A DNA stretch of 64,000 nt, from positions 2,223,001-2,287,000 of the forward strand of contig NZ_CP132387.1 of assembly GCF_030758755.1 (NCBI RefSeq), in the 5' to 3' direction. The position numbers and the translations under genes were made by a program. Positions 2,953 to 64,000 of this stretch are shown here, one piece after another (position 1 is the stretch's first letter; each line of letters opens with the position of its first letter). The notes under the pieces were generated by a model. That model did not search any database, was not told the origin of the DNA, and saw only the letters and a list, made by a program, of their open reading frames with translations. This DNA is from Bartonella apihabitans. GTDB lineage: Bacteria; Pseudomonadota; Alphaproteobacteria; Rhizobiales; Rhizobiaceae.

Positions 2953-4187
2953 CTATTTGAAACGCTCTTCGATATATTCGGCTACCATCTGCTCGAATTC
3001 AGCCGCAATATTTGCCCCGCGCAATGTTTTTACCTTTTTACCATCAATAAAAACGGGGCAGCCGGCATTTCGCCTGTACCGGGAAGCGAAATACCGATAT
3101 TGGCATGTTTTGATTCCCCTGGACCGTTGACGATACATCCCATGACGGCAACATTGAGTGTTTCGACACCGGGATATTTTTTCCGCCAGACCGGCATATT
3201 TTTCCGGATATCGCCCTGAATTTTCTGTGCGAGCTCCTGAAACACCGTCGAGGTGGTACGTCCACAGCCGGGGCAAGCGGCAACAGTGGGTATAAATTGC
3301 CTGAATCCCATGACCTGCAAAAGCTCTTGTGCAACCTGCACTTCGCGGCGGCGATCGCCACCCGGTTCAGGTGTCAAAGAAATACGGATGGTATCGCCAA
3401 TTCCCTGTTCCAGCAGAATGCCAAGAGCTGCCGAAGAGGCGACAACACCTTTGGTTCCCATACCTGCTTCGGTAAGACCCAGATGCAACGCATAATCGCA
3501 GCGCTTGGCCAACATGGTATAGACGGCTACAAGATCCTGTACCTGACTGACTTTTGCCGAAAGAATAATTTTATCCTTCCCAAGGCCGATTTCTTCCGCA
3601 AGATGGGCAGAAATAAGCGCAGACTGCACCACCGCTTCATGCATGACCTCGTCGGTCGACAGCGGTCCCCCTTTTGCGGCATTCTCGTCCATTAAGCGTG
3701 TCAGCAATTCCTGATCGAGAGAACCCCAGTTAACCCCGATACGGACCGGTTTATCATATTGAATTGCAAATTCGATTATTTCACTGAATTGTTTGTCACG
3801 TTTTTCGCGAAACCCGACATTTCCGGGATTGATGCGATATTTTGCCAAGGCTTTCGCACAATCGGGAAATTCGGCGAGTAATTTGTGACCGATATAATGA
3901 AAGTCACCAATAAGCGGAACTGTAAGTCCAAGATTATCGAGCCGTTCTCTAATTCTTGGTACAGCGGCTGCCAATTCATCCCGATCGACAGTAATGCGTA
4001 CAAGTTCCGAACCTGCCTTGGCGAGTGCTGCGACCTGAGCCACTGTTGCATCCACATCGGCTGTGTCCGTATTGGTCATTGATTGCACGACAATAGGATT
4101 ATCGCCTCCCACCATAACGCCGCCAACATTGACAGCAACAGATTTGCGACGCGGAAAAGGTTTGGAAAAATATTCGTGCGTATTCAT
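2953..4187 (-). pseudogene. ispG: 4-hydroxy-3-methylbut-2-enyl diphosphate synthase, C-terminus frameshifted
   Basis: Penultimate enzyme of the MEP isoprenoid pathway, a [4Fe-4S] protein converting MEcPP to HMBPP. The intact first 370 or so residues show [13 protein letters not shown], the TIM-barrel region, and the cluster cysteines in CPGCGRT and [10 protein letters not shown]. The main frame then stops early (385 residues), but the expected ending ([13 protein letters not shown] ... EYIEERFK) is present in the neighbouring frame down to 2953. Restoring one base in the G4 run at 3055-3058 (C4 on the coding strand) gives 411 residues, the usual size. As given, the last 34 or so residues, which lie in the reductase domain, are replaced. 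Since ispG is normally essential, I infer an error or a very recent mutation. Confidence 0.9.
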
Positions 4188-4559
4188 TTTCGGATGATGT
4201 CTCTTTTATTGCCTGATCATCATAATCATATCGGTTTGTTATAACTGTTTTAAAGCCATTTTCCCAATCGGAAATTTGAAAAAGATTTTCACTTTTCCGA
4301 TTATCGGAATGTCTTTTTCAGAAATTCCGTGAGGTCAGTGATGAATTGAACCCGTCCCCGTGCTTTTCAAGTTTTTCTTTTTCGTCTTTCCGGTTTTAAA
4401 TAATTTCGCGATTTGAATATAGCGTTTTCGGGAAAAAATAACGGCCCGAGGTTTTCTATTCCCACTGGAAGGAACTTTTTTACGCATTATCTATTGTAAT
4501 AGATAGTAGTTACAGCCTTGTGTTCGATTTATACGGGGCTTCAGCGCAAGGGAAAAACA
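4188..4559. other. Divergent promoter region of ispG and the DUF883-like gene
   Basis: 372 bases, AT-rich, between two divergently transcribed genes. No open frame or clear operator was recognised. It must hold both promoters. Confidence 0.45.
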
Positions 4560-4850
4560 ATGTTTAATCTTCTTAACGGCAGCGATACGAAAGAAAAAGT
4601 CGAAAAACGCATTCAGGATCTCAAAGCCGAGCTCCAATCGCTCACCCATTCACTGACCAAGGGCGACGGTTTTATGAGCAATACCGGCGAAATTGCCGAA
4701 ACAATAAAGGATAAAGGGCGCCAAGCGCTCGATGTTGTCGGTGAACAAGCCCACTATATTACCAAGCAGACAAAAAATTATCCTAAAACCGCCTTGGCCG
4801 TTGTAGGGGTCTTAGGTGTTGCGGCTTACTTTCTCTTCCGCCGCAAATAA
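4560..4850 (+). CDS. DUF883-like (ElaB/YqjD-type) small membrane protein
   Basis: 96 residues: an amphipathic, charged helical N-terminal two thirds with coiled-coil character (about residues 9-70, including DLKAELQSLTHSL and KDKGRQALDVVGEQ), then one transmembrane helix ending in FRRK. This layout matches the DUF883/YqjD group, C-tail-anchored inner-membrane proteins some of which bind ribosomes in stationary phase in E. coli. Function here is unproven. The start at 4560 follows AAGGGA with good spacing. A further upstream in-frame start at 4518 has no such site. Single-gene unit followed by a strong hairpin terminator. Confidence 0.75.
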   Translation: MFNLLNGSDTKEKVEKRIQDLKAELQSLTHSLTKGDGFMSNTGEIAETIKDKGRQALDVVGEQAHYITKQTKNYPKTALAVVGVLGVAAYFLFRRK

Positions 4851-4996
4851 TCGGAACGATAAAAAATCGGATTGCATTTGTGTTCGAATAAAATTTGTTT
4901 CACTAAGGTTTGAGAACCACATTTTTTAAAATAACCGGCACATTCAAAAGTTTGGATTGGTTATCTATCACTGGATAAAGCAAAGTAGAGTTAAAT

Positions 4997-5023
4997 AAAA
5001 AAGCGCGTTAAACGCGCTTTTTT
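4997..5023. terminator. Bidirectional intrinsic terminator
   Basis: Perfect inverted repeat with 13-base arms around a single A, core GCGCGTT/AACGCGC, flanked by A and T runs on both sides. It lies between the DUF883-like gene (plus) and the end of livJ (minus), so it probably serves both. Confidence 0.85.
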
Positions 5024-5080
5024 CTATTCCGGTCTTTTCAGCTCTTATGGCTTACTTCAGTTTTTTCCAGAATTGATTTT

Positions 5081-6199: not shown

Positions 6200-6273
6200 T
6201 CCAGTTCTCCTCTTTTTCTTTACAAGTTGTAAAACATCCAAAGTATTTTTTCCAGACAACATCAAAGAAAAGC

Positions 6274-6621: not shown

Positions 6622-6670
6622 TTTTTCTCCCTAACGCTTCAAACACCAGTGGTGATTTTGAAGATCGTGA

Positions 6671-18178: not shown

Positions 18179-19709
18179 TCAAGAAAAGTTCTTGGAATAA
18201 GTTTGAAGAACTGTCGTCAACTTGTTCTTCAGCTCATCTGTCAACTTCTGTTCGTTGCGGATACCATCAAGAATATCCGTATGGTCGGTGCGCATCAGCG
18301 CCAGAAATCCTTGTTCGAATTTGCTAACCTGATTAACAGCAATCTTGTCGAGATAACCATTTACACCGGCAAAGATAACAACAACCTGTTCCTCTGTCTT
18401 TAACGGTGAAAATTGTGGCTGCTTCAACAACTCGGTCAACCGCGCACCGCGATTAAGCAGACGCTGGGTCGATGCATCAAGATCAGAGCCGAATTGGGCA
18501 AAGGCGGCCATTTCACGATATTGGGCAAGTTCACCCTTGATCGAACCGGCTACCTGCTTCATTGCTTTAATTTGCGCAGCAGAACCAACACGCGAAACCG
18601 ATAGTCCAACGTTCACCGCCGGACGGATACCTTGATAGAACAGGTTCGTTTCAAGGAAAATCTGACCATCGGTAATCGAAATCACATTGGTCGGAATATA
18701 GGCTGACACGTCATTTGCCTGCGTTTCAATAACAGGAAGTGCTGTCAGCGAACCGGCACCATGAGCATCATTCATCTTGGCTGCACGTTCAAGCAAACGA
18801 GAGTGCAAGTAAAAAACATCGCCAGGATAAGCTTCACGCCCCGGCGGGCGACGCAGCAACAAAGACATCTGGCGATAAGCCACAGCCTGTTTTGACAAAT
18901 CGTCGTAACCGATCAAAGCATGCTTGCCATTATCACGGAAATATTCACCAATCGCACAACCGGCAAACGGCGCAATAAATTGCATCGGAGCCGGTTCGGA
19001 AGCAGTTGCAGCAACAATGATCGAATATTCCAGTGCGCCACGTTCTTCCAGTGCTTTCACAAAACGGGCAACAGTTGAACGTTTCTGACCGACAGCAACA
19101 TAGACACAATAAAGTTTATCTTTTTCGATATTCTTGTCATGTGCCGGCTTCTGGTTAAGAAATGTATCAAGCAAAATTGCTGTTTTACCGGTTTGACGGT
19201 CACCGATCACCAACTCGCGCTGACCACGTCCAATCGGAATAAGTGCATCAATCGCTTTAAGACCGGTCGACATCGGCTCGTGAACCGATTTACGCGGGAT
19301 GATTCCGGGAGCCTTGACATCAACACGACGACGTTCTTTGGCATTGATCGGGCCTTTACCGTCAATCGGATTTCCCAAAGCGTCCACAACGCGTCCAAGA
19401 AGCTCCTGGACCAACAGGAACATCAACAATGGTTTTCGTGCGCTTGACCGTATCACCTTCACAAATGTCACGGTCCGAACCGAAAATAACAACACCGACA
19501 TTATCACTTTCGAGGTTAAGCGCCATACCACGTATGCCACCGGGAAACTCGACCATTTCACCGGCCTGAACATTATCCAAGCCATAAACACGGGCGATAC
19601 CGTCACCCACAGACAGAACCTGACCAACCTCGGAAACTTCGGCTTCTTTACCGAAATTTTCGATTTGACTTTTCAGGATTTTAGATATTTCCGACGGTTT
19701 AATATCCAT
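18179..19709 (-). pseudogene. atpA: ATP synthase F1 alpha subunit, reading frame broken by a one-base insertion
   Basis: Non-catalytic nucleotide-binding subunit of F1. Codons from 19709 give the usual [16 protein letters not shown] start and run to TIVDVPVGP. The frame then fails, and the rest ([16 protein letters not shown], Walker [20 protein letters not shown]) continues in another frame to 18179. The coding strand reads CCAGGAGCTT where CCAGAGCTT is expected, so one extra G near 19405 explains it. Removing it yields 509 residues, the normal length. The neighbouring atp genes are intact and alpha is indispensable, so the break is probably an error in this sequence. Start overlaps the atpH stop (TGATG). 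Confidence 0.95.
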
Positions 19710-25555: not shown

Positions 25556-26131
25556 TCATTTCAATTTCGACATATCCTGAGCCAAAGACAGGAAGATCTG
25601 CTCGGCCAATTCTTCTGCCGCACGTTTCTTGGCATCCTCTTCAGCTTGCAAGTTTGCATATTCCTGACGAGGACGGTCAAACGAAGCACTGACAGTCCGT
25701 GTCCGCCGGGCGAGAGGATTATTTTTCATATCTTTCAAAACATAGGTCGAATGACCATCAACAGCACCGGCAGATGCACGCCCCGTACGATCGGTCGAAT
25801 CGCCAATATCCATCTGGACCGCAGTCCGGATGTTATAGCTTGTTCCAAGTGATAGTTGATAGGTTGGAGCAGAAGGCTCTCCAGCACCACCATTCAACAA
25901 GAAAATCAACCGGTTACGAACCAACTGGTTAAACCGGTCGGTCGGCGCGTCAATCACAACACCTGACAATTTCGAGCGGATGGACGGTGAAACATTCATT
26001 TGCGCCGTCCCGTTCGAGTCTCCGTGATAGAGAGGCTGAACAGTGCAGGCCGATATGGCGAGCGTTGTCCCCAATAGTACAGCAGTTGTTATGGGTCTGA
26101 TGCTATTCAGAATATGGTCAGGCAACAACAT
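25556..26131 (-). CDS. lptE: LPS-assembly lipoprotein LptE
   Basis: Outer-membrane lipoprotein that plugs and assembles the LptD LPS translocon. 191 residues with signal sequence and lipobox LAISAC (Cys29), then TVQPLYHG, as in alphaproteobacterial LptE. Helical C-terminus rich in Glu/Ala. Overlaps the leuS 3' end by 14 bases with its own AGAGGA, the conserved leuS-lptE arrangement (often followed by holA, which is not here). Confidence 0.85.
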
Positions 26132-28730
26132 TGACGATCCTCTGTGGAACTACGATAATTTTCTTCGGCTTCTTGCCTGCCAGATTTGATTGCACAAAAT
26201 CGAGCGCAAGAACAGCCTTTTCGATGGTAGATTGATCCGCATTGCGGGCAATTGTCAAATCACCACGCTTTTTCCCGTTAATCTGGATAGGGATAGTAAT
26301 CTCGTTATCCACAATTAAAGCAGGATCATAATGTGGCCAAGACATTTGCGCAACCAGATTTGTCCCGCCCAAAGCAGCATGACATTCTTCCGCGAGATGT
26401 GGAGTCATTGGCGATATCATGACGATGAAGAAATCCAGTGCCTGTCTCAAAGCAGCTTTCATTTCGTCATCGGCTTGTTCCAGATTCTGCAATTCCGGAG
26501 CGAGCTTGTTGACAAGTTCATAAAGGCGCGCCACAGCGCGGTTGAAAGCAAGCTTTTCAATATCATCTGCCACTTTCGCAAGTGTGCGGTGAGCCGCTTT
26601 GGAAATATCGAGTGCTGCACCCTTTGTTCCGGCTTGCGGTTTGACATGTGCCAATATTTCGGCACTTGCCGAAATCAACCGCCAGACGCGTTGTACAAAA
26701 CGGTGAGCACCTTCCGCACCTGCTTCGGTCCAGATAACATCACGTTCGGGCGGTGAATCGGACAACATGAAAAGCCGTGCGGTATCAGCACCATAGGAAG
26801 AAATAATATCGTCCGGGTCGACGACATTTTTCTTCGACTTCGACATTTTTTCGATTGAACCGATTTCTACCGGACTGCCATCGGAAAGGAGTGTCGCACG
26901 ACGCACGCCATCCTTTTCTACGATCCGGATATCGGCAGGGGCTACCCAACCTTCCTTGTTGTGATAGGTTTCGTGAACCACCATACCTTGAGTGAAAAGC
27001 CCTTTGAACGGTTCGTCGACATTGACGTGGCCGGTCATTTTCATAGCACGCATGAAAAAGCGCGAATACAACAAATGCAAAATCGCGTGTTCGATGCCAC
27101 CAATATATTGATCGACCGGCAACCATTTCCTGATCGCGTCCTTGTTTGTCGGTTCGTTTTCCCGTGGTGCGGTGAAGCGGGCATAATACCATGAGGAATC
27201 GACAAAGGTATCCATCGTGTCGGTTTCCCGCCGTGCAGGCTTGCCACAGCGCGGGCATTTGACAAATTTCCATGTCGGGTGGCGGTCAAGCGGATTGCCG
27301 GGTTTGTCGAATGTGACATCATCAGGCAATTTTACCGGCAAATCGGCACGAGGAACCGGTACATCCCCGCAATCATCACAATGGATAATCGGAATCGGGC
27401 AGCCCCAATAGCGTTGCCGCGAAATACCCCAGTCGCGCAGGCGGAATTGAACTTTGCGCTCGGCTTGCGGGCGACCGTTCAACATCTGGCCGGACAAGTG
27501 TTTGAGAACTTCTTCAAATGCGGCTTTCGGCTTCAAGCCGTCAAGAAAGCCGGAATTGATCATAATACCGTCTTCGGTGTGGGCTTCTTCGGTCACAACA
27601 AAACTGTCAGGATCCGCACCTTCGGGCAAAACAACCGGACGCACCGGCAATTCATATTTATTGGCAAAATCAAGATCGCGTTGATCGTGGGCAGGACAGC
27701 CGAAAACTGCACCCGTACCATATTCCATCAATACGAAATTGGCGACATAAACAGGTATTTCCCATTTATCATCGAATGGATGGACGACTTTCAAGCCGGT
27801 GTCGAAGCCTTTTTTCTCGGCTGTTTCAATTTCGGCTGTCGACGTTCCCTTGCGGTGACATTCGTCGATAAAATCTTTCAGTTTCGCATTTTTTTCGGCA
27901 AGTTTGCGGGCAACCGGATGATCGGCAGCAATAGCGATAAACGAAGCACCGAATATTGTATCGGGGCGGGTTGAAAAACATTCGATTTCGCTGAAACCGT
28001 CTATCGGCGTATCCTTGGCGATTTCCCAACGCAACAGTGCACCTTCGGATTTGCCAATCCAGTTGCGTTGCATAACGCGCACTTTTTCCGGCCATTCATC
28101 AAGGCTGTTCAAACCATCGAGAAGTTCCTGACTGAATTTGGTGATTTTGAAAAACCACTGCGTAAGCTCCCGCTGTTCAACCAGCGCACCCGAACGCCAG
28201 CCACGACCGTCAATGACTTGCTCGTTGGCAAGCACTGTATGATCGACCGGATCCCAATTGACTTTTGACGTTTTACGATCAACAAGCCCTTTTTCATACA
28301 TATCGAGAAAAAGCATCTGCTGGCGATGATAATATTCGACATCGCAGGTTGCGAATTCGCGTGACCAATCAAGAGAAAGTCCCATGGACTTCAGCTGCCT
28401 TTTCATGGAAGCGATATTCTGATAGGTTCAGTCTTTCGGGTGGACTTTGTGTTGCATAGCGGCATTTTCTGCCGGCATGCCGAAAGCATCCCACCCCATC
28501 GGGTGCAAAACATTAAATCCGCGGGCGCGTTTATAACGGGCAACCACATCCCCCATCGCATAATTGCGCACATGCCCCATGTGAATGCGCCCCGAAGGAT
28601 AGGGAAACATTTCCAACACATAATATTTCTCACGCGGGTCATTATTATCGGTTTTGAAAACCTCTTTTTCGCCCCAGATTGACTGCCATTTCTGTTCTGT
28701 CGCGCGTGGATTATAGCGTTCGGTTGCCAT
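26118..28730 (-). pseudogene. leuS: Leucyl-tRNA synthetase with an in-frame TGA at a conserved Trp codon
   Basis: Charges tRNA-Leu. The restored product is 870 residues, normal for LeuS. HIGH motif appears as HMGH within [14 protein letters not shown]. The editing domain, SWYYARF and KMSKSKKN are present in order. One codon breaks it: after HKVHPKD a TGA (28428-28430) is followed in the same frame by [12 protein letters not shown]. Family members have Trp there (HP..WTY.NI), so TGG to TGA is the only change needed. As given, a 100-residue fragment and a truncated remainder result. leuS is essential, so a base-call error is likeliest. Start at the ATG of MATERYNP. Confidence 0.95.
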
Positions 28731-28848
28731 TACAATTATACTCTTGCAAAATGTGGTCAAAAAACTCAATACGTGCTTCACCACGGATTAAGGAAAGCGT
28801 CAACCATTTCTAGCGCTTTTATTCATTAAAATTGATGAAGAAGGGAAA

Positions 28849-29534
28849 ATGACTATGGATGCGGTTATTGCACAATGGCAAAAAGTCAAAGAGAATATCG
28901 TCAAAGCGTGCAATGATGCAAAACGTAGAGCTGATGACGTTCAGCTTATCGCTGTGTCGAAAACGTTCGGAGTTGAAGATATTCACCCGCTTCTTGAAGC
29001 AGGACAACGTGTTTTCGGTGAAAACCGTGTTCAGGAAGCCGAAAGCAAATGGCCGCAATTGCGCGAAGAATTTCCTGATCTCAAGCTCCATCTCATCGGG
29101 CCATTGCAATCAAATAAAACAAAAGAAGCAGTCCAGCTTTTTGATGTGATCGAAACGGTTGACAGAGAAAAAATTGCAAAATTTCTTCAAGAAGAAATGT
29201 CGAAACAAAACCGCAAGCTCGCCTGCTATGTGCAAGTCAATATCGGAGAAGAGCCACAAAAAGCCGGTATAGCTCCGAACGAGGCAGTCGAGTTTGTCAA
29301 ACATTGCCAAAACGACCATCATCTCGATATTGTCGGTTTGATGTGTATTCCGCCGGTCGGTGAAAATCCCGGCCCTCTTTTGCCCTTCTTGCAAAATTGG
29401 CAAAAGAGGCGGGAGTGGAAAAACTGTCAATGGGAATGTCGGCGGATTATGAAACAGCCATTGCCTTCGGTGCCACAAGTGTGCGCGTCGGTTCGGCAAT
29501 ATTCGGTCATCGTCCGCCGATTACCCATCAATAA
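28849..29534 (+). pseudogene. yggS: YggS/PLPBP pyridoxal-phosphate homeostasis protein, frameshifted
   Basis: PLP-binding, fold-type III barrel protein that buffers free PLP. Residues run normally through LIAVSKTFG (PLP-lysine), FGENRVQEA, HLIGPLQSNKTK and [14 protein letters not shown]. Then the frame is lost, and the expected end ([30 protein letters not shown]) lies in the next frame, stopping at 29534. A missing A between 29377 and 29378 (CCTCTTTT for CCTCATTTT) restores 228 residues. The restored stop directly abuts the convergent SDR stop. Start may be 28849 or 28855. Confidence 0.9.
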
Positions 29535-30511
29535 TCAGCTATCCATGCCAATTCCGCCGGCCGCACCAAAGACCTGACCTGAACAATAGCTTGCTTCTTC
29601 CGATGCCAGCAAAACATAAAGGGGCGCAATTTCAACCGGCTGTCCGGCACGCTTCAAAGGTGTTTCGGACCGAATTCTGGCAAGGCTTTCATGAGCTGGC
29701 CACCGGCGGGTTGCAGTGGTGTCCAGAAGGGACCGGGAGCAACGGCATTGACGCGAATGCCTTTCGGAGCCAGTTGTTTTGCCAGCGATTTGGCAAAAGC
29801 AACATTGGCAGCCTTGGTTTGAGCATAGTCAAACAAGGTTGCAGACGGGTCAAATGCCTGTATCGAAGATGTAATAATGATGGAACCACCCGCAGGAATG
29901 TGTGGCAATGCAGCTTTTGTAACACGGAAAGGTGCATAAATATTGGTTTTCATCGTCTGGTCAAAAGATTCGTCTGTGAGATCAGAAAGGGCTTCCACCG
30001 CCTGTTGACGACCGGCATTATTCACCAGAATATCAAGTCCGCCCAGTTTTTTGACTGCTTCCTCGACCAATTTTTCGCAAAAATGCCGATCGGTCAAATC
30101 ACCGGGAATAGCAAATCCTTTGCGCCCTGCCTGTTCGATAAGCTTGATAACCTCTTGCGCGTCTGACTCTTCTTCCTTTAAGTAATTGATTGCAACATCG
30201 GCACCTTCGCGTGCAAAGGCTATTGCCACGGCGCGCCCTATGCCGCTGTCACCGCCGGTAATCAACGCTTTTCTGCCTAAAAGTTTACCGGAACCTTTGT
30301 AGCTTTTTTCTCCGTGATCGGCCTTTGGCGTCAACTTCGATGCAAGTCCCGGAGCTTGTTGTTTTTCTGTCGAATAGGGAGGCTTCGGATAAGCATCTAC
30401 CGGATTTTTCAACGAAGCTGTCGCCATCCGGTGACCTGACTTCTTTGACGTCACATCAGACCCACTTTTTAACGCTTCTTCCCGTGAGACTATCAGCTTT
30501 TCATCCAACAT
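29535..30511 (-). pseudogene. SDR family oxidoreductase (YghA/GSP39-like), C-terminus frameshifted
   Basis: NAD(P)-dependent short-chain dehydrogenase of the group with a long N-terminal arm. Nucleotide motif TGGDSGIGRAVA, NNAG, catalytic Ser in ITSSIQ, and YAQTKAAN (Tyr-x3-Lys). Substrate unknown. Bacillus GSP39-type relatives are stress-induced. After LPEFGPK the frame stops at 29654, but TPLKRAGQPVEIAPLYVLL and GQVFGAAGG continue in another frame to 29535. One A missing from an A run near 29664 (AAAC for AAAAC) explains it. Restored length is 325. Confidence 0.88.
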
Positions 30512-30822
30512 AGCATTTTCCTTTCAAATACCGGACACAATACGAAGTGGTATTACTTCGGTATTTTAACTACTGCTCGCTGTTTTAAAATCGATGCCCC
30601 GGCGGCGTTTTTCAGTAAAAAAGAAACGAAAATTGACAATTTCTAATTATTTTACTTCGATTTTTTCTAGTCATTCACGATAAGTTTTTTAAAAATATCA
30701 TTTTAAGACTTCCAAGAAACCGATGATACCATTTAATGTAAATATCAAATATCCATCACAAAAGGATATTTTATAAAGAACGTGTTGCGTGAGGAGAATA
30801 GCAACACACAAAGGAGGAGAAG
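30512..30822. other. Divergent promoter region of the SDR gene and acs
   Basis: 311 bases, AT-rich, no gene. A CGAAGT/ACTTCG inverted repeat lies near 30544-30562, close to the SDR start. The acs side ends in a leader hairpin and a strong ribosome site (listed separately). Confidence 0.45.
30782..30807 (+). promoter_or_regulatory. Leader hairpin just before the acs ribosome site
   Basis: Perfect 7-base arms GTGTTGC (30782-30788) and GCAACAC (30801-30807). The loop contains GTGAGGAG, and the strong Shine-Dalgarno AAAGGAGGAGAAG follows within three bases. It might modulate ribosome access or mRNA stability. No known riboswitch is recognised. Confidence 0.4.
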
Positions 30823-32774
30823 ATGTCGGATAAAGTCTATCCTGTGTCTAGTAATATCAAGAAAAATGCCCTGATTGATCGTGAAACATATCTTCAATGG
30901 TATGATGAAAGTATAAGCGATCCGGATGCATTCTGGTCGAAACATGGCCGGCGCATTGATTGGTTCAAACCATTTACAAAAGTTAAAAATACCAGCTTTC
31001 GAGGCCGTGTATCCATCAAATGGTATGAAGACGGAATCACAAATGTAACCTATAATTGCATCGACAGACATTTGAAAAGTCGCGGTGATCAGGTTGCGAT
31101 GATCTGGGAAGGTGACAACCCCTATATTGATAAAAAAGTCACCTATAAGGAACTTTACGAAAACGTTTGCCGGTTTGCCAATATCCTAAAAAAACGGGGC
31201 GTCAAAAAAGGCGATCGGGTTACCATTTATCTTCCCATGATTCTGGAAGCCGCTTATGCAATGCTCGCCTGTGCACGCATCGGCGCAGTCCATTCAGTGG
31301 TTTTTGCAGGCTTTTCGCCGGAAGCCCTTGCAGGGCGTATTGTCGACTGCGAATCGACCTTTATCATTACGGCCGACCAAGGTGTACGTGGTGGCAAGCC
31401 CATTCCGTTAAAAGAAAATGTCGATCATGCAATCGACATTGCCGCACGCCAATATGTGCTCGTCAATCAGGTGATGGTTGTGCGCAGAACCGGCGGCAAA
31501 ATCGGTTGGGCTCCTGGACGCGACTTCTGGTATCATGAAGAAATGGCCAATGCGAAAACCGAGTGCCCGCCAGCGCGCATGAAAGCCGAAGACCCGCTTT
31601 TCATTCTTTATACGTCAGGTTCTACGGGTAAACCGAAAGGCGTCCTTCATACAACCGGCGGCTATCTTGTTTATGCTTCCATGACGCATGAATATGTATT
31701 CGATTATCATGTCGGCGACGTTTATTGGTGTACCGCCGATGTCGGCTGGGTTACCGGACATTCCTATCTGGTTTATCAGCCAGTTTATGTAACGGTGCCA
31801 CAACGCTTATGTTTGAAGGTGTTCCGAACTTTCCCGATCAGGCGCGCTTTTGGGAAGTTGTCGACAAGCATAAGGTCAATATTCTTTATACCGCACCGAC
31901 AGCTATTCGGGCACTGATGGGAGCCGGTGACGAATATGTCGAACGCTCGAAACGGACATCATTGCGCATTCTCGGTTCGGTTGGCGAGCCGATCAATCCG
32001 GAAGCGTGGAACTGGTTTTATCATAAAGTCGGTGATGATCGCTGCCCGATTGTCGATACATGGTGGCAAACCGAAACCGGCGGCCATATGATCACCCCGC
32101 TACCCGGTGCAACCGATCTGAAACCCGGTTCGGCAACACTTCCCTTCTTTGGCATCAAGCCCGAGCTTGTCGACACTGAAGGAGAAGTCCTCGTTGGTGA
32201 AAATGATGGCAATTTGTGCATTACCAACTCGTGGCCGGGGCAAATGCGCACAATTTATGGCGACCATAACCGCTTTGTAGAAACCTATTTCTCGACCTAT
32301 AAGGGCAAATATTTCACCGGTGATGGCTGTCGTCGTGATCACGACGGATATTACTGGATTACCGGCCGCGTCGATGACGTCTTGAATGTTTCAGGCCATC
32401 GTCTTGGCACGGCAGAAGTTAAATCGGCGCTCGTCTCCGATCACAATGTGTCCGAGGCAGCGGTTGTCGGTTACCCGCATCCGATCAAGGGACAGGGTAT
32501 CTATTGTTATGTGACATTGATGGAAGGTATCGAACCGACAGAAGAATTGCGTCAACACCTTATCAAACATGTCAGAAACGAGATTGGACCGATTGCCACA
32601 CCCGACAAGATCCAGTTTGCTCCGAGTCTGCCAAAAACACGTTCGGGCAAAATTATGCGGCGAATTTTGCGTAAAATTGCCGAAGACGAATTTGAAAATC
32701 TGGGCGATATATCGACACTTGCAGAACCGCAGGTTGTTGAAGACCTGATTGCTAACCGTTTGAACAAACGTTAA
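30823..32774 (+). pseudogene. acs: Acetyl-CoA synthetase, frameshifted in the middle
   Basis: Activates acetate to acetyl-CoA through acetyl-AMP. Both halves match Acs closely: N-terminal [18 protein letters not shown]-loop [35 protein letters not shown] and the acetylation-site end [14 protein letters not shown]. Around 31775-31795 (after GHSYLVYQP) the frame changes. The continuation [18 protein letters not shown] is one frame away, equivalent to one lost base or two gained. Restored length is 650, as in relatives. Strong ribosome site. Faces ackA-pta, linking acetate activation and overflow. Confidence 0.93.
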
Positions 32775-36605: not shown

Positions 36606-37975
36606 ATGAAACGTGTTGAAAAACAGGAGTGGCGTAACCAGCTTATTCTCGATAATGCCCTGGATTATGCAATATTAACGGCTGACATGAACGGGCTTAT
36701 TGTCAGCTGGAGTTCCGGAGCCGAAAAATTGTTCGGCTGGAAACCGGAAGAAATAATCGGTCAGCCGCTTGATGTTCTTTTCACCGAAGAAGACAGGATG
36801 AACAGGCTTCCGGAAACGCGCCAACAAATGGCAAGTTTGCACCGGATAGACGTTGTCGAGCGGTTTCACCAAAGAAAAGATGGTACGACTTTCTGGGCAT
36901 CGGGAGATCTTCAAGCGCTCTATAGCGATGATGGAAAGCAACAGGGATTCTTGAAAATTGTCCGCGATCGAACGGACGAACAACGTCATTCCGAAACATT
37001 AAGGCTAAGTGAAGAACGGCTGCGGCTCGCCCAGCAGGCTGCCGGCATCGGTGCTTTCGAAATTGACCGTGATCGCAAAATGATTGAAGCGACACCGCAA
37101 TTTTTAAAACTTCTCGGATTCGAGGAAAGCCCTGAACTTCCCTTGAATGACTTTTATTCCGTCATCGTCGATAATCCGAAACAGATTGCAAAACAAATGT
37201 TGCAGACCAGGCAGGACGAAAGTCTGATTACACATTTGGAATTCCAGATCAAAAGGGCTGACACCAAACAATTACGCTGGATCGGTTATTGGGCGGAAGC
37301 TGCTCCAAAAGACGTTGGCAAGTCGATGAAACATCGAATCCTGGGCGTTTTACAGGATATTACCGAGCGGCGCGACGCACAGGAAAAACAGGCACTCCTT
37401 TCGGGTGAACTTGCTCATCGTGTCAAAAATATTCTGGCAATTGTTCAAAGCATTGCCAACCAAACTCTTACCGAATCGACATCCGTGACAAAAGCATTAC
37501 AGGATTTTTCGGTACGGCTGAATGCACTTGCCCATGCGCAGGATATTTTGACACAAGGGGCAACCAGCAGTGCCGACCTCAAACAAATAGTCGAAAGCAG
37601 TCTTGATATTCATGACAAAACCAAAAAAAGGTTCATCATATCGGTTCCCCCGTATCGCTCTCGCCGCCAACAGCATTGTCCATGGCTTTGGCACTTCACG
37701 AATTGAGCACCAATGCTGTCAAATATGGTGCTTTGTCCTCCAAAAACGGCATCGTCGAGATCAACTGGACTATCGATAAGGATGAATTCCATTTTTCATG
37801 GCGTGAAAAAGGCGGTCCGACGGTTTCTCAGCCAACAAAGCTCAGTTTCGGCAGCAAATTGATAAAGCGTCTTTTACCAGCCCGTTTTAACGGACATGCC
37901 GAATTGGATTATGCGCCGGAAGGTTTCTCCTTTGAACTTACAGCACCTCGAACAGCAGAGAATTTTCCCGGCTGA
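36606..37975 (+). pseudogene. PAS-domain HWE-family sensor histidine kinase, frameshifted
   Basis: Cytosolic sensor kinase: PAS 1 (about residues 12-130, AILTADMNGLIVSWSSGAEKLFGW), PAS 2 with PAC (about 140-265), then the HWE core with the phospho-His region ELAHRVKNILAIVQSIANQTL and the N box ALHELSTNAVKYGALS, which typify HWE kinases. Between them the frame slips near 37640. A lost base after FIIS restores SPVSLSPPTALSMALALHE, for about 456 residues. No transmembrane helix and no adjacent response regulator. HWE kinases often sense light or redox via PAS ligands, or act in the general stress response. The ligand here is unknown. Weak ribosome site. Confidence 0.85.
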
Positions 37976-44052: not shown

Positions 44053-45252
44053 TCAGAACGGCCCCACACGATGACGGCTTCCGGTAGTCGAAGGCATGGT
44101 GCCGTTGCTGACACCGGTTACAACCGTTTCACCTTCTTTAAGTCCGGAAACAACTTCGACCATAACTTTATTATTCAATCCGGTTTCGATGTCGCGGGCT
44201 TCAAGCTTGCCGTTTTTATCAAGAACATTGACCACTGCTCGTTTGCCCGAAACATCGTTCAATGCATCACTCGGTATAAGCAGCACTTTTTGGGCGCGTC
44301 CCAGAATAATATGAACTTCCGCAGTCATATAAGTGCGCAAAACGCCATCATCATTCGGCACATTGAACGTGCCATTATAATAAATGGCCTGCGAAGTCGA
44401 CGAGCTCGAAGAAGCCGTCGAGGATGAATTGAAACTGATATCATTACGGATGGATTCAGGTGCCGGTTCGATCTTTTCCAACCGGCTTTCATAGCGCCGC
44501 GTACGATTGCCTAAAACATTGAAATAAAGGCCCTGACCGGGTTTGACATTGATAACATCCGCTTCGGATATTTCTGCTCGAACCGTCATCACCGACAAAT
44601 CGCCGAGAATAACAATCGTCGGTGCCGACTGTACGGCGTTAACGTTCTGACCTTCCTGAACAACCGTGGCAAGAACTGTACCATCGGACGGTGCCGTTAC
44701 ACGCGTATAACCGAGATTGACTTTGGCTGTCTCGACATCAACTTCCGCCTGCACAATCTGCGCTTTCAACTGGTCGATCTGTGCCGCACGGATTTTGACT
44801 TGCGCATCGGCATCATCGAAATCGGCTTTGGAAACAGCATGCGAAGAGATCATCGTTTGCTGGCGGGTCATATTCTGTTTGGCAAGAACAAGTTGCGCTT
44901 CCTGCTCGGCAAGTTTTCCACGATAATTGGCAAGAGCTGCTTCTTTGCTTTTCAAATCGTTTGTCTGGGTTGTCGGATCGATTTCGGCAAGCAAATCACC
45001 TTGTTTGACAATGCTTCCGGGCTTTACCTTCATCGAAACGATACGACCCGTTGCACGCGCACCAACAGCAACCAGCCGGTGCGGTTTAATCGTGCCGTTT
45101 GCAAGAACGCTGACTTCAATATCCCCCCTTTTGACCTTCGACGTCATATAGGTTGGCGCAGTCTTCGAAAAAAACGCCGAGTGGACAAATATCAAAAGCA
45201 CGATCAGTGCAATCACAGCAATGATGATAACGACTGTTTTTTTTGCTTTCAT
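44053..45252 (-). CDS. macA: MacA-like periplasmic adaptor
   Basis: 399-residue RND/MacA-type membrane fusion protein: N-terminal transmembrane helix (about 6-28), GTIKPHRLVAVGARATGRI lipoyl part, hairpin coiled coil (about 95-175), TRVTAPSDGTVL, and a barrel domain. A Ser-rich insert (about residues 275-292) is a local peculiarity. Start overlaps the stop of the outer-membrane factor gene (ATGA), so the three genes are coupled. Confidence 0.9.
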   Translation of the reverse strand: MKAKKTVVIIIAVIALIVLLIFVHSAFFSKTAPTYMTSKVKRGDIEVSVLANGTIKPHRLVAVGARATGRIVSMKVKPGSIVKQGDLLAEIDPTTQTNDLKSKEAALANYRGKLAEQEAQLVLAKQNMTRQQTMISSHAVSKADFDDADAQVKIRAAQIDQLKAQIVQAEVDVETAKVNLGYTRVTAPSDGTVLATVVQEGQNVNAVQSAPTIVILGDLSVMTVRAEISEADVINVKPGQGLYFNVLGNRTRRYESRLEKIEPAPESIRNDISFNSSSTASSSSSTSQAIYYNGTFNVPNDDGVLRTYMTAEVHIILGRAQKVLLIPSDALNDVSGKRAVVNVLDKNGKLEARDIETGLNNKVMVEVVSGLKEGETVVTGVSNGTMPSTTGSRHRVGPF

Positions 45253-46737
45253 CGCGTTTTGCTCTCTGTTTCAACTTTTCTAATGTGCGGCCCTGTATAG
45301 CCGTCGACAATTTCCGGTTTTGTGTCGTCTACCGCACCATTCCAACCACCACCTAAAGCTTTCATGAGCGAGATATAATCCTTGGTAATCGAAACCTGAC
45401 TTTCAATCAGTGACTGTTCGGATGAATAATGAGACCGCTCGGCATTCAACAGTTCAAGAAAACTGGTATTGCCACTTTGATAAAGCGAACGCGACAGGCT
45501 CAATGCTTTGGCATAGGAATTGGCAGCAATGGCAAGTTTTGCCGAGCGCTGTCTTTCTTTGCTCATCGACACAAGTGCATTCTCGACATCTTCCAATGCC
45601 GTCAACACGCTGCTTCGATAATTGATAAAAGATTGGTCACGCTGGGCACGGGCAACCTCGACAGCAGCCATTCTCTGGCCACCTTCAAAAATCGGTATAC
45701 TTAAACCCGGACCGGCCGACCAACTGATTGAAGAACTTTTTCCAAGTTCACCCGGCTGGGTTGCAGAGGTGGAAATATTGCCGGTTAGCGTCAAAGACGG
45801 ATAACGGTCTGCTTCCTTCTGGCCGATGCGGGCGGTGGCTTGCGCATATTGGCGCTCGGCCAATCGAACATCGGGGCGTGTCAGCAGTATATCGGCAGGA
45901 ACGCCCGCCGGTATCGGCCATTTCGGTTCAGGAATTTTACCTGTTTTTGCCATGATATCATTAAGAGCTGTCGGGCTTTGGCCGGTTAAAACAGACAAAC
46001 GATGAATTGTTGTTGCAAGATTGGCCTGCATTTGTGGAATACCGGCTTCGGTGGTGGCAGCCTGACCTTCGGCATTGGATACATCAAGCTGGGAAACCGC
46101 GCCGGCAGCAAATTTGTCTTTGGTCAATTGTGCCGTGCGCCGTTGCGCAATCGCCGTTCTTTGAGCCAATGCTATTTGCTGTTGTAGCCCGCGTATTTCC
46201 GCGTAATTGGTTGCAACATCCCCAATGAGAGTAAGCATTGTGGCACGCATATCTTCTTTGGCACCATCAAGACCATATTTTGCCGCTTCAACAGCCCGCC
46301 GATTGGCACCGAAAAGATCAATCTCCCAACTTGAATCAAGTCCACCACGATACTGGCTGCGCTCAGTCGCCTGCCGATTTATTCCGGTTGGCCGAAGCCG
46401 AGCCGTCAATACTTGGCAATAATGTTCCCGTTGTCTGCCACAAAGTCGCTCTTGCTTCACGCACCCTTGCTTTTGCCGACTGGACATCATTGTTACCGGC
46501 AATTGCATCAGACACCAGTTTATCAAGCAAGGGATCATTCAGTCTTTGCCACCAGTTTGCTAGTTCCGGCGGTGTCGACGGCGTTTCATGTGAATCACCG
46601 CTCCATTTGGAATCGAGCTTGAAAATCGGCTTTTGATAATCGGGGCCAACAAGGCAGCCCGAAAGCATCAAAACTGAAGTCAGTGCAATCAAGGAAAAAG
46701 TTGATCGGCCGACAGTTTTGAAACAGCCTTTCTGCAT
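45249..46737 (-). pseudogene. NodT/OprM-like outer-membrane efflux lipoprotein, frameshifted
   Basis: Trimeric outer-membrane channel for the MacAB pump. N-terminal part: signal with lipobox LMLSGC, then LVGPDYQKP as in NodT/OprM factors, through SIDGSASANRNKSAGD. It stops at 46363-46365, while GLDSSWEIDLFGANRRAVEAA and the rest (LLTRPDVRLAERQ, PIFEGGQR) continue in another frame to 45249. Net change is one base gained or two lost close to 46363-46370. About 495 residues when restored. AGGAAAA precedes the ATG. Confidence 0.88.
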
Positions 46738-48931: not shown

Positions 48932-51375
48932 TTAAAAATTTTCGCCTTCTTCGGGAACAAGAATTTCACGCTTTCCGGCGTGATTGGCAGGGCTTATCAA
49001 ACCTTCTTCTTCCATCCGCTCGATAATCGTTGCAGCACGATTATAGCCGATACCGAGCCGACGCTGGATGTAGGAGGTTGAAACGCGGCGATCGCGCAAG
49101 ACAACAGCAACCGCCTGATCGTAAGGGTCTTGCGAATCTTCAAAATGGCTGGAACCGCCTGAAATGTCATTATCGCCATCATCGTCATTTTCTTGTGTAA
49201 CGGCATCAAGATAGTCCGGAACCCCCTGACTCTTGAGATGCTGGACAATCTGTTCAACCTCTTCATCTCCGACAAACGGTCCGTGAACACGCTGGATACG
49301 GCCACCCCCCATCATGAAAAGCATGTCGCCCTGCCCCAACAAATGTTCGGCACCCTGTTCTCCGAGAATGGTACGGCTATCAATTTTGGAGGTTACCTGA
49401 AATGAAATACGTGTCGGGAAATTCGCTTTGATTGTACCGGTAATCACATCGACAGACGGACGTTGTGTTGCCATAATCACGTGGATACCGGCAGCACGAG
49501 CCATTTGTGCCAAACGTTGGACGGCTCCTTCGATATCTTTTCCGGCAACCATCATCAAATCCGCCATTTCATCAATAATGACGACAATATAAGGCATCGT
49601 TGTCAGATCGAGAGTTTCGGTCTCGTAGATCGGTTCGCCGGTTTCATGATCAAAACCGGTTTGAACCGTTCTTGAAAGCTGTTCACCTTTACGCTCGGCT
49701 TCTTTTACCCGTTCGTTAAAACCGTCAATATTCCTGACGCCGACTTTTGCCATCTTGCGGTAGCGTTCTTCCATTTCGCGAACGGCCCATTTCAACGCAA
49801 CAACAGCTTTTTTCGGGTCGGTGACAACCGGTGTTAAAAGATGGGGAATTCCATCATAAACAGACAATTCCAGCATTTTCGGGTCAACCATGATCATCCG
49901 GCATTGTTCCGGTGTCATCCGGTAGAGGAGTGAAAGAATCATGGTATTGATTGCCACCGATTTACCGGAACCTGTCGTACCCGCGACAAGCAGATGCGGC
50001 ATTTTCGCAAGATCGGCAATGACAGCCTCGCCACCTATTGTCTTGCCGAGAGCAAGACCGAGTTTGGCTTTATTCTTATAAAAGTCCTGCGTAGCAATGA
50101 TTTCACGAAGATAGACAATCTGGCGTTTCGGGTTCGGCAGTTCAATACCGATAACATTACGCCCCGGAACAACAGCAACACGAGATGAAATAGCGCTCAT
50201 CGAACGGGCAATATCATCTGCCAACCCGATAACACGTGACGATTTTATACCCGGTGCCGGTTCGAATTCGTAAAGCGTTACAACCGGTCCCGAACGTGCA
50301 TTGATAATCTGCCCTTTGACACCGAAATCCTCCAATACGCTCTCTAACTGGCCGGCTCTTTCTTTCAAAGCTTCGGGAGTGAGAAGATCGCTTTTTTCGA
50401 TAGGCTTCGGTTCGGCCAAAAAGTCGACACTGGGTAATTCGAAACCATCGGCGAGCCGCGACTTCGCTTTGCTTGCCGTTTCTCTTGGAAGGACGGTTTC
50501 CTCTTCCGGTTCAGTCCATGGCATTTCATCCGGTGCGGTTTCGGAGGGGGTTGAAAATTCGGGTTCTACCCGTTCATGACGGAACGCGTTTGTCCCTTCA
50601 AAATTGGGGACAGGAGGAAACATCGGTTCCTTGCGATGAAAAAGGCGGCCGATTTCTGCTCTCAACAAATAGAAAAGATGCATTGTTCCACCAAGAACGG
50701 TTACCATCAAAGATGCGCGTGCCGAACCATCATCTTCCTCTGTCCCCATGCGGTTTTCCGCTTTACGTCTCGATTTTGTTTTTTTCTTGGGACTACGGCG
50801 ACCGACAACACCACCCGCTATGGCAGCGGTCCAAAATGCCAAGCTAAAATGGCAGCAATGATTGATGTTGAAACCACCGTCGGCACGGCTCCGAGAAAAA
50901 GATTGGCAAAATTGAGGATTTTATCGCCAAAGACACCGCCAAGTCCGATTGGCATGGGCCAATGCGCGAAAGGCGGCACCAGCGCAATAAGACCGGAAAA
51001 ACAAAATGCCGATATTAACCAGAAAAAAAGCCGGTGGAACGGTCTTCCTATATCTTTTTGAGCAATCAAAAGAACCGACCAAAAGAAAGGAGGAAGAAGA
51101 GCCGCAACACTGGCAAGCCCGAAAAATTGCATGGCAATATCTGCAAAAACGGCACCCGGCCACCCCATGATATTTGTAACCGGATTATTATTGGCATAAC
51201 TCAGACACGGATCTGCAACATTCCATGTCGCCAAAGCGGCGGCTGCAAGGCCTATCAATATCAATATACCGATACCGAGGAACGAGCCGAGCTGTCGGGA
51301 AAACATCTCCACCAGATGCGGGCTTTGATAAGCACCATCTGTTGTCAAATCATAAGGGGATGAATCCTGACGCAT
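48932..51375 (-). pseudogene. ftsK: DNA translocase FtsK, frameshifted after the membrane domain
   Basis: Septal DNA pump resolving chromosome dimers. Residues 1-185 give the four-helix membrane domain. The frame then ends in [11 protein letters not shown], while the linker, motor (Walker [14 protein letters not shown], Walker [30 protein letters not shown]) and DNA-reading gamma domain ([20 protein letters not shown]) follow in the neighbouring frame from about 50840. Adding one base near 50843 gives [17 protein letters not shown] and an 814-residue protein. Sequence error or fresh mutation is likely, since ftsK is normally kept. Confidence 0.93.
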
Positions 51376-56828: not shown

Positions 56829-57609
56829 TTAAACGCGCCGCTCTATCATCAATTTCTTAATTTCGGCGATAGCCTTTGCAGGGTTCAACCCCTTCGGGCA
56901 TGTTTGCGCACAATTCATGATTGTGTGGCAACGATAGAGCCGGAACGGATCTTCCAGATTATCAAGGCGTTCACCCTTTGCTTCATCACGCGAATCAGCA
57001 ATCCAGCGATAGGCCTGCAACAATACAGCCGGTCCGAGATAGCGATCACCATTCCACCAATAGCTCGGGCAGGATGTTTGGCAACATGCGCAAAGAATGC
57101 ATTCATAAAGCCCATCCAGTTTCTGGCGGTCTTCATGGCTTTGCAACCATTCTTTCTCGGGCACCGGCGAAACTGTATGCAACCAAGGCTCGATCGAACG
57201 GTGTTGAGCATAGAACCGGTTGAGATCAGGAACCAGATCTTTTACCACCGGCATAGATGGCAAAGGATAAATCTTGATCGGGTGTTTGACCTCGTCCATG
57301 CCTGTAATACAGGCAAGGGTATTCGACCCGTCAATATTCATGGCACAAGAGCCACAAATACCTTCACGACAGGAACGCCGCAATGTCAAAGTCGGATCAA
57401 CATGATTCTTGATGTATAAAAGGCCATCAAGAATCGATAGGCCCGCAAGAATTACGATCGACATAATAGGTGTCGAGACGCGGGTTCTGGTCGTCATCCG
57501 GCGACCAGCGGTAGATGTGGAATTCGGTCAGTTTCGAGGTGTCAGCCGGTTTCGGCCAAACCTTACCCGGCTTGATTTGCGAATTCTTGGGAAGCGTCAT
57601 ATGAACCAT
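56829..57609 (-). pseudogene. sdhB: Succinate dehydrogenase iron-sulfur subunit, frameshifted
   Basis: Carries the 2Fe-2S, 4Fe-4S and 3Fe-4S clusters of complex II. The N-terminus (MVHMTLPKNSQ ... [10 protein letters not shown] ... [10 protein letters not shown]) is in one frame. [20 protein letters not shown] and all cluster cysteines ([43 protein letters not shown]) are in the next. The coding strand reads CCTATCGATTCTT where CCTATGATTCTT (P-M-I-L) is expected, so one extra base near 57436 explains it. Restored length 259, as in relatives. GGGGAG precedes the ATG, 15 bases after sdhA. Confidence 0.94.
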
Positions 57610-57624: not shown

Positions 57625-59468
57625 TTAGTAAACGCGCTTCTTCGGCGCAATTTTCTTGAGCGAAATGCCACCGTCTTCCTCTTTGGTTAACGGGTTGAGG
57701 TGGACACCACGATAGGATAGCGAAACTTTCCCATCCTCGGACAAACGCGAAACCGTATGCTTACGCCAGTTTTTGTCGTCACGCTCCGGGTAGTCCTCAC
57801 GTGCATGAGCACCACGGCTTTCATGACGGGCTTCAGCCGAATAAACTGTCGAAATCGCATTGGCCATCAGGTTTTCCAATTCCAATGTTTCCATCAGATC
57901 GGAATTCCATATGAGCGAGCGATCGGTTACTTTCACATCCGGCAATTCATTCCAGATTTCCGAAATGCGTCTGCAACCTTGCTGAAGCGTTTCTTCCGTA
58001 CGGAAAACGGCCGCATCTTCCTGCATGGCGCGCTGCATCTTTTCACGCAACTCGGCTGTAGGTTTGGCTCCATTGGCATAACGGATACGATCGAACCGAT
58101 CCATGATCTTATCGACCGCCTGTTCGTTTATTGGCGGAATTTCCGACTTGCGATCAATAACTTCGCCAGCCCGGATAGCCGCCGCACGACCAAACACCAC
58201 AAGATCGATCAACGAGTTCGAACCTAGACGGTTAGCACCGTGCACAGATGCGCACCCTGCTTCACCGACGGCCATCAAGCCTGGTTGAACACGATCGGGT
58301 TCATCTTCTGTCGGGTTTAATACCTCGCCAAAATAATTGGTCGGTATGCCGCCCATATTATAGTGAACCGTCGGAATAACCGGTATCGGATCTTTCGTAA
58401 CGTCAACACCGGCAAAAATGCGGGCTGATTCAGAAATACCCGGTAGACGCTCATGCAAAATGGCCGGATCAATATGACTCAAAACCAGATAGATGTGATC
58501 TTTTTTAGGACCAACACCGCGTCCTTCCCTGATTTCAATCGTCATACAACGCGAAACAACGTCACGCGAAGCAAGATCCTTGAACGAAGGAGCATAGCGT
58601 TCCATGAAACGCTCGCCTTCCGAATTGATGAGATAGCCACCTTCGCCACGTGCACCTTCGGTGATCAAACATCCCGAACCATAGATACCGGTCGGATGGA
58701 ATTGGACAAATTCCATATCCTGCAACGGTAGACCGGCACGGGAAATCATACCACCGCCATCACCTGTACAGGTGTGGGCAGATGTTGCCGAGAAATAGGC
58801 ACGGCCATAACCACCTGTCGCCAGCACAACCATTTTTGCCGAAAAACGGTGAATACTGCCATCATCAAGATTCCAGGCTACAACACCTGTGCAAACGCCA
58901 TCGGTCATGATGAGGTCAAGCGCATAATATTCAACAAAGAATTGCGCATTGTGCTTCAGGCTTTGGCCATAAAGTGTGTGCAAAATAGCGTGACCGGTAC
59001 GGTCGGCAGCAGCACATGTACGCTGAACGGGCGGACCGGCTCCGAAATCTGTCGTATGTCCGCCAAACGGGCGCTGATAGATTTTACCGTCTTCGGTACG
59101 TGAAAATGGAACACCATAATGTTCAAGCTCATAGACAGCCGCCGGTGCATTGCGCACCAGATATTCCATGGCATCCATATCGCCTAGCCAGTCGGACCCT
59201 TTGATCGTGTCATACATATGCCACTGCCAATTATCCGGCCCCATATTGGATAGAGATGCTGCAATACCACCTTGTGCTGCCACTGTATGGGAACGTGTCG
59301 GGAAAACCTTGGTAATACAGGCGGTTTTTAACCCCTGTTCGGCCATTCCCAACGTTGCACGTAGGCCCAACCACCGGCACCAATAATAACGACGTCAAAT
59401 TTGTGATCGACAAAATGGTAGGCTTTTCCACTTTTTGTTGTGGAACTAGTTGAAGAAGTGGTGACCAT
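57625..59468 (-). pseudogene. sdhA: Succinate dehydrogenase flavoprotein subunit, frameshifted near the N-terminus
   Basis: Oxidises succinate to fumarate with covalently bound FAD. The first 35 codons (to DVVIIGAGG) are in one frame. From [18 protein letters not shown] the protein continues in another, through [13 protein letters not shown] (FAD His), [12 protein letters not shown] and HPTG. One base is missing near 59368-59371, within the dinucleotide-binding GAGGAG loop. Restored length 614. Start ATG 59468 with GGAGG upstream, five bases after sdhD. Confidence 0.94.
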
Positions 59469-59473
59469 AGAGA

Positions 59474-60720: not shown

Positions 60721-60756
60721 GAAAACCGTTTTGCGTTTTCAAACAAAACGGTTTTC
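60721..60756 (-). terminator. Terminator of the GNAT gene
   Basis: Perfect 13-base arms GAAAACCGTTTTG/CAAAACGGTTTTC with a 10-base loop, 52 bases past the GNAT stop. The T run on the minus strand is short. Confidence 0.65.
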
Positions 60757-60808
60757 CTGATTTTATTTTGAATCATCAAGCTCTAGAAGCAAAGGAGCTT
60801 CAGCGATT

Positions 60809-61279: not shown

Positions 61280-61382
61280 ACCCGAACTCCCTTTGGTGGG
61301 TTTTTCACTTAATCTATGTTTAAAGTGACCGGATCAAAACGTAAAGAGTTCTTGCTTCAGGAAATACAATTTGCCGCAGTTT

Positions 61383-62792: not shown

Positions 62793-62949
62793 TTTTTTGT
62801 CCTTGAATATTATAATCTAGGTGTTTTTATCTTTTAGACCGGCCATTATTCGACGATCATTCTAAAAGTCAATTCACTTGATATGAGATAAGAACAACCT
62901 GTCGATTTTACAAATTCCGATGAAGTTCAATAAAAGATAATATTATAAA

Positions 62950-62973
62950 AAAAGCGGCTTAAAAGCCGCTTTT
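62950..62973 (-). terminator. Terminator of the rplS operon
   Basis: Perfect AAAAGCGGCTT/AAGCCGCTTTT arms, 2-base loop, T run on the minus strand. Lies 25 bases past the rplS stop, so it ends the trmD-rplS transcript before leuC. Confidence 0.88.
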
Positions 62974-62997
62974 ATCTCAAATAAAACCAATCGGCTT

Positions 62998-63459
62998 TTA
63001 TTCTGATTTCTGTTCAGCTTCCGGTAGCGGTGCAGCCACTGTTTCAACAGTGACAGTTTCAGCCACACCGGTGCTTGGAACATCAACCGCCTTCTTGCGG
63101 TAATCTCTTTTCTCGGAAATGCGGGCAGCTTTACCGGTAAGGCCACGCAAATAATAGAGTTTAGCACGACGCACATTACCACGACGAACGACTTCAACGC
63201 CCTCGACAAGTGGTGAATATACCGGAAATACGCGTTCTACACCCTCGCCATAAGAAATTTTACGAACGGTGAATGTCTCGTTAAGACCACCACCCGAACG
63301 GGCAATGCAAACACCTTCATAAGCTTGAACACGGGTACGTGTACCTTCAGTCACACGAACCGAAACGCGAAGTGTGTCACCGGCCTGAAAGGCTGGGAGT
63401 TTGCGCTTTTCTTCAATTTTTGCGCGCTGCTCGGCGTCGAGCTGTTGTATAATATTCAT
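62998..63459 (-). CDS. rplS: 50S ribosomal protein L19
   Basis: 153 residues, interface of the 30S and 50S subunits. [44 protein letters not shown] and the [26 protein letters not shown] signature. The last 35 or so residues form a Val/Glu/Ala tail beyond the core, seen in alphaproteobacterial L19. AAGGA upstream. Conserved trmD-rplS order. Confidence 0.96.
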
Positions 63460-63637
63460 CTCATCAATCCTTCATGTTCTTCTCGAACAGTCAGAGCGCT
63501 CGACTCTTGCCCTCGAAACCTTGTTCCTTCGGCTATGCCTTGCGGCAGGAGCGGGTTCACCATCCATTAATTTCCGGATGCAGATGACGTACCATCTGAA
63601 AACGTGGTTTGCCCATTACACTATCGCGCAAACTGAA

Positions 63638-64000
63638 TCAAGCTTTCCTGTTATTTTTCTCGTAAATCGAATAAAGATCCGGCCGTCTTGCTCTGGTTAT
63701 TTCTTCCGACCGGCTTTTACGCCATTTTTCAATTTCCTGATGGTTTCCCGATGTCAAAACGTCGGGAATTGATCTGCCTTCAAATATTTGTGGCCTTGTA
63801 TATTGCGGATATTCAAGAAGTCCGGCTTCGAAACTTTCCTGTTCGCCCGATTGATTGTTCCCCATCACACCGGGCAAAAGCCGCACAATCGAATCAAGTA
63901 TAATGAATGGCCGCCCCCTCGCCACCGGAAAGAACGTAATCACCAATCGAGACCTCGATAAGATTTCTGGCTTCGATCACCCTTTCGTCCACACCTTCGA
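63638..64000 (-). pseudogene. trmD: tRNA (guanine-N1)-methyltransferase, frameshifted and cut by the window edge
   Basis: Methylates G37 of tRNAs, essential for frame maintenance. From the right edge the frame reads [28 protein letters not shown], typical TrmD. It then breaks, and [26 protein letters not shown] and [16 protein letters not shown] lie in another frame to the stop at 63638. One extra base near 63907 (ATTCATTATAC for ATTATTATAC) accounts for it. The N-terminus lies outside. Precedes rplS by 178 bases. Confidence 0.92.

Follow-up and report, generated by a model that had tools for sequence, protein, structure and literature searches.

Twelve interrupted genes and their relatives

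The window, the whole stretch of 64,000 nucleotides that was analysed, corresponds to G000:C3:2223001-2287000 in a genome (G000) of 2.74 Mb in three contigs. Its nearest relatives are those of the Bartonella apis group of the bee gut: the large leuS fragment shares 96% identity with B. apis PEB0122 and 97% with a Bartonella MAG, and over 17.7 kb the nucleotide identity to the window is 94% for G007 and G018 and about 81-83% for G014. These relatives are described as bee-gut symbionts in the available excerpts of PMC11389375, and G000 itself probably also came from a bee. The window was aligned with G007 (nearly full length, 93-94% nucleotide identity in alignment), G018 (10.7-46.7 kb) and G014.

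All eleven frame-changing indels and the one in-frame TGA in leuS that were listed in the initial annotation are present in the alignment with G007. They had been described as single-base events in housekeeping genes; compared with G007, the indel is of one base in 8 of the 11 genes, of two bases in acs and the outer-membrane factor and of four in ftsK, with the effect on the frame as described, and the housekeeping label does not fit the SDR oxidoreductase, the HWE kinase or the outer-membrane factor. Protein families were confirmed for 10 of the 12 genes on the G007 orthologues, and those of leuS and the outer-membrane factor on the window fragments. The restored lengths proposed earlier agree with those of relatives for ispG (411), atpA (509) and sdhB (259); that of sdhA (614) equals the length in G014, the ORF of G007 being longer (636) because it was called mechanically from its first start, and ftsK is restored to 814, compared with 815 in G007 and 816 in G014.

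The word GGNCC recurs at these sites. It lies adjacent to the break near 19407 in atpA (18179..19708, reverse strand) in the window and in all six relatives, and accompanies the break near 29373 in yggS (28849..29534, forward strand, its end set from the 228-aa ORF of a relative), again in the window and in six of six relatives. At the leuS TGA (28428-28430; gene 26118..28784, reverse strand), GGNCC is absent from the window and present in five of six relatives, G007 being the exception. The same word is found in all five covered relatives at the two-base indel near 31782 in acs (30799..32774, forward strand), in five of six at the break near 37649 in the PAS/HWE histidine kinase gene (36606..37975, forward strand), in two of three covered relatives at the two-base indel near 46367 in the gene for an efflux outer-membrane factor of the NodT subfamily (45249..46737, reverse strand), in both covered relatives at the four-base indel near 50843 in ftsK (48932..51375, reverse strand), and in one of two at the break near 63906 in trmD (63638..64000, reverse strand, cut by the window end). 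Only the window carries it at the breaks near 29669 in the SDR oxidoreductase gene (29535..30511, reverse strand; none of six relatives) and near 59369 in sdhA (57625..59473, reverse strand; neither of two covered relatives). In sdhB (56829..57609, reverse strand), GGNCC lies a few bases from the break near 57436 in the window and in both relatives, and the indel near 3059 in ispG (2953..4187, reverse strand) falls in a run of G with no GGNCC nearby. In total, GGNCC occurs within about 8 bases of 11 of the 12 sites in the window or a relative, and at 9 of the 12 in at least one relative; its background in the window itself is 1.6% of positions, to which the relatives add further chances.

The orthologues of close relatives, a comparison proposed in the initial annotation, are intact at every site covered. 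The ORF is open across all 12 sites in G007 and in G014, across the 7 covered in G018 (where the outer-membrane-factor ORF is cut near a contig end), and across 6 of 6 covered sites in L002 (PEB0122), 6 of 6 in L072 and 5 of 5 in L003.

Smaller irregularities occur inside further genes of the window. Compensating pairs of one-base indels lie at 5948-5955, near GGYRCC, and at 39249-39260, near GGNCC, as seen against G007 and G018, respectively; the frame is kept and the local residues are changed in what we take, from the sequence, to be genes for a binding protein and an FtsE-like protein. At 8482, an in-frame three-base gap coincides with a G007 GGNCC site in a branched-chain amino acid permease-like gene.

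Frame breaks at GGNCC within and beyond the window

The GGNCC idea arose from alignment snippets at the break sites of the window; six further G000 stretches (L104, L105, L106, L108, L109 and L110) played no part in forming it. Together with the window they provide 174,255 aligned bases, about 6% of G000; alignments below 85% identity or shorter than 400 bases were dropped, and L107, L111, L112 and L138 did not enter the set. Genes were taken as the mechanical longest ORFs of G007, with overlapping ORFs dropped (which removes yggS from these counts), and an interior break was defined as one within an ORF of at least 600 nt and at least 45 nt from its ends.

Over 119,239 coding columns aligned with G007, the seven G000 stretches show 28 interior frame breaks, and 21 of these lie within 3 bases of GGNCC, whose vicinity takes up about 2% of the coding columns (0.6 expected, p 8.2e-30). 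The window contributes 8 of its 11 breaks to this number, and the six outside stretches contribute 13 of their 17 (p 2.7e-19 for the latter). When GGYRCC is admitted as well, 22 of the 28 are accounted for. In the control comparison of G018 with G007, a single break was found in 53,356 columns, away from GGNCC. The excess of frame breaks is thus beyond chance and is not confined to the window. Six interior breaks lie off both motifs, namely window 1905, 3059 (ispG) and 57436 (sdhB), L110 9965, and L105 7391 and 13231; that in sdhB falls just outside the 3-base rule, and that at 1905, counted as a miss, is probably located before the real start codon. None of 25 breaks in short ORFs or near ORF ends is at GGNCC, and among non-coding indel clusters 5 of 135 are near it; natural indels may hide a GGNCC signal in non-coding DNA.

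Substitutions and other sequence words

Substitutions were screened by sequence word. Among canonical 5-mers with 15 or more occurrences in the window, GGCCC (34/61) and GGACC (30/52), the two canonical forms of GGNCC, are the most often altered relative to G007 (mean 27%), and they rank tenth and eighth, respectively, in the same screen against G018. In the larger set, CCAAA ranks first, GGACC second and GGCCC fourth for losses relative to G007, and of the GGNCC forms only GGACC is within the top 12 relative to G018. GGNCC is lost in G000 at 117 of 276 G007 sites and in G007 at 47 of 206 G000 sites; the difference is smaller in the control pair, with losses in G018 at 39 of 125 sites and in G007 at 24 of 110. 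Outside GGNCC, coding changes are about equally numerous (1,668 private to G000, 1,755 private to G007), indicating that G000 is not error-ridden in general. At the fixed positions of GGNCC, G>A or C>T makes up 19 of the 29 changes private to G000 and 3 of the 8 private to G007, both small numbers. Differences within GGNCC sites of G007 fall at codon positions 1-2 in 45 of 137 cases, compared with 2,014 of 8,735 elsewhere (p 0.010); for the opposite comparison the figure is 8 of 41, which does not differ significantly from 45 of 137 (p 0.12). The sites that lost GGNCC thus show only a modest shift, and part of the substitutions are real, ordinary divergence.

Other words were considered as the target. 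Restriction of the signal to RGGNCCY was rejected, since 45 of 112 GGNCC sites with neither flank are also lost; these losses beyond RGGNCCY point to GGNCC as the probable target word, and indels are commoner where both flanks are present (7/35) than where neither is (5/112). GANTC, the CcrM motif, gave no clear signal, with 44 of 174 sites lost in G000 and 32 of 162 the other way. GGYRCC, the BanI target, which was examined because a second restriction-modification pair (below) suggested it, was lost at 34 of 85 sites and at 18 of 69 in reverse, which is suggestive only, and it lies near 2 of the 28 interior breaks, one of them also at GGNCC. In a screen of palindromes, GGSSCC, which overlaps GGNCC, had the highest loss (27/45), and GGNCC ranked fifth of 93 by loss.

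Disagreement between 23S rRNA copies

23S rRNA genes were found in G000 and G003 among four genomes searched; 16S was found in G000 alone. G000 holds at least two 23S copies (L157 and L158), from the scoring of 10 among 63 initial candidates. In the 3,268 aligned bases holding the gene, the two copies differ at three positions, and all three fall in two GGNCC sites. Another aligned piece covers flanking sequence outside the 23S gene and contains many differences between the copies. At one GGNCC site, L157 has an extra base at 3533 relative to the Rfam consensus and to G003; the other site is where L158 deviates from the Rfam consensus, at 1774-1777, and where L157 is identical to G003. Differences limited to one restriction motif are not expected between copies that concerted evolution keeps alike, whereas consensus errors would produce this pattern. 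With both copies off at GGNCC, a 23S-based identification of G000 would be slightly wrong.

Restriction-modification genes of G000

A profile search with PF00145 gave six matches in G000, representing four C5-methyltransferase genes, and no match in G007, so that the restriction-modification pair described here was not seen there. At L128 1462-3563 (G000:C3, about 570 kb), a 433-aa C5 methyltransferase with a MerR-type N terminus is encoded back to back with a 261-aa endonuclease. The latter matches RE_EcoO109I (PF14511) with 95.8 bits (cut-off 22.5, E 3.8e-27), and EcoO109I (E 4.6e-4) is the only solved structure that it matched. In addition, source names among the 120 homologues listed of 1,336 include EcoO109I, the MjaII superfamily and the PmeII family. 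EcoO109I cuts RGGNCCY and MjaII cuts GGNCC, and our literature search returned no paper linking EcoO109I with RGGNCCY. The methyltransferases of G018, G014 and G003 share 29-33% identity with the 433-aa enzyme, for which GGNCC is predicted as the target by analogy with EcoO109I and MjaII.

Adjoining this pair, two overlapping ORFs in different frames (L128 53-1266) resemble another frame-broken gene, presumably glnE. A second pair, on the 5,266-bp contig G000:C1 (L111), which is possibly a plasmid, comprises a 421-aa C5 methyltransferase and a 341-aa endonuclease of the BanI family. Two further, mutually similar C5 methyltransferases, at L133 1009-3320 and L132 577-1917, one of them followed by an N6/N4 methyltransferase gene, look like prophage genes.

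Origin of the frame breaks

The best explanation of the breaks, with a probability of roughly 0.9, is in our view not mutation but base-calling that erred systematically wherever GGNCC was methylated, in an assembly built from native nanopore reads. The C5 methyltransferase of the type II pair most probably methylates a cytosine in GGNCC throughout the genome. If native DNA was read, as on a nanopore, base-callers untrained on this modification would misread the modified base uniformly, and the same sites would be miscalled alike in most reads. Polishing with the same reads could not remove such shared miscalls, and indels of one to four bases, together with C-to-T or G-to-A changes, would remain in the consensus, some of them in essential genes. 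Both premises, that GGNCC is methylated in G000 DNA and that the reads were nanopore reads, are drawn by us from the assembled sequence. The explanation builds on the clustering of breaks at GGNCC, the open frames in relatives, the disagreement between rRNA copies, the restriction-modification genes and a lack of relaxed constraint in the broken genes. Uncorrected read errors had already been favoured in the initial annotation; the concentration at GGNCC, which fits a restriction-modification pair in the genome, adds a cause.

Ordinary random assembly errors, arising in homopolymers or at low coverage with no part for methylation, could account for the 4 of 28 long-gene breaks that lie well off both motifs, the ispG break in its run of G among them, besides window 1905 and sdhB. 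Such errors are an unlikely general cause, given that 21 of 28 breaks are at GGNCC, including 13 of 17 outside the window; homopolymer miscalls were likewise rejected as the main cause, as among the twelve sites ispG alone looks like one. We regard as less likely again that the breaks are genuine, the cell's own restriction-modification system having mutated GGNCC sites in vivo through self-cutting followed by imprecise repair or through deamination of methylcytosine. The motif does fit the predicted target of that system, and the prevalence of G>A or C>T among G000-private changes at GGNCC, relative to G007, is in its favour. Deamination does not produce indels, however, and if a three-base overhang were filled in, three-base insertions should result, a class absent among the 25 coding indels near GGNCC. 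A search of G000 for Ku gave no match, and real mutation would further imply that F1 alpha, LeuS, FtsK and TrmD were lost together and that 23S rRNA was changed at conserved places. A variant in which an active GGNCC system mutates its own chromosome, by occasional self-cutting and by deamination together, so that the deposited sequence represents a population with broken essential genes in many of its cells, is more doubtful still.

Early genome decay in a host-bound symbiont, raised as an alternative in the initial annotation, draws on the bee-gut lifestyle described for the relatives in the excerpts of PMC11389375, and is in our judgement the least probable of these readings. Outside the motif, differences at codon positions 1+2 and at position 3 number 327:1311 in 23 broken ORFs and 1134:4627 in the others, a group that includes the four ORFs broken away from the motif, and the two patterns are equal (Fisher p 0.81), giving no sign of relaxed constraint. 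The genome shows no reduction in size (2.74 Mb; G007 has about 2.7 Mb), the breaks favour one motif, and the 23S copies disagree only there. Moreover, decay and self-cutting would each leave the cell without several essential proteins.

Since the breaks cluster at a word that is probably methylated by the genome's own restriction-modification system, the twelve broken genes are almost certainly sequencing errors with an identifiable cause and not gene loss or another real feature. Taken at face value, the G000 record would imply a false loss of ATP synthase, complex II, LeuS, FtsK and TrmD, and extrapolation from the 174 kb compared suggests that such errors may touch a few hundred genes. Frame breaks gathered at a single palindromic word, together with rRNA copies whose only disagreements lie there and a matching restriction-modification pair, form a signature by which such artefacts could be spotted without reads, and the errors in turn predict the methylation target, GGNCC.

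Comparison with known systems

Errors concentrated at one methyltransferase motif are likewise known from nanopore assemblies of Klebsiella, where, according to the benchmark excerpted from PMC6591954, about 70% of consensus errors from the ONT base-callers then current lay in Dcm motifs; the motif there is CCWGG, and in G000 it is GGNCC. For Neisseria, the excerpts of PMC12506013 place 74.76% of the erroneous indels on a methylated site or one base away from it, with mismatches at 5mC mostly from C/G to T/A. The Listeria case, with the lineage-specific motifs GCAGC and GCTGG, is dominated by mismatches rather than indels in the excerpted account (PMC10687267), unlike the frame-breaking indels of G000. 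G000 is likened to these nanopore precedents from its consensus sequence, and our literature search found no paper joining Bartonella, 'frameshifted proteins' and nanopore. As to the enzymes, the excerpt of PMC9465063 documents an m5C methyltransferase acting on GGNCC in Mycoplasma agalactiae. Restriction-modification systems of the EcoO109I/MjaII type resemble the G000 pair in combining a PF14511 endonuclease with a C5 methyltransferase, but the G000 methyltransferase differs by its MerR-type N terminus, and the GGNCC losses in G000 extend beyond RGGNCCY, the flanked form cut by EcoO109I.
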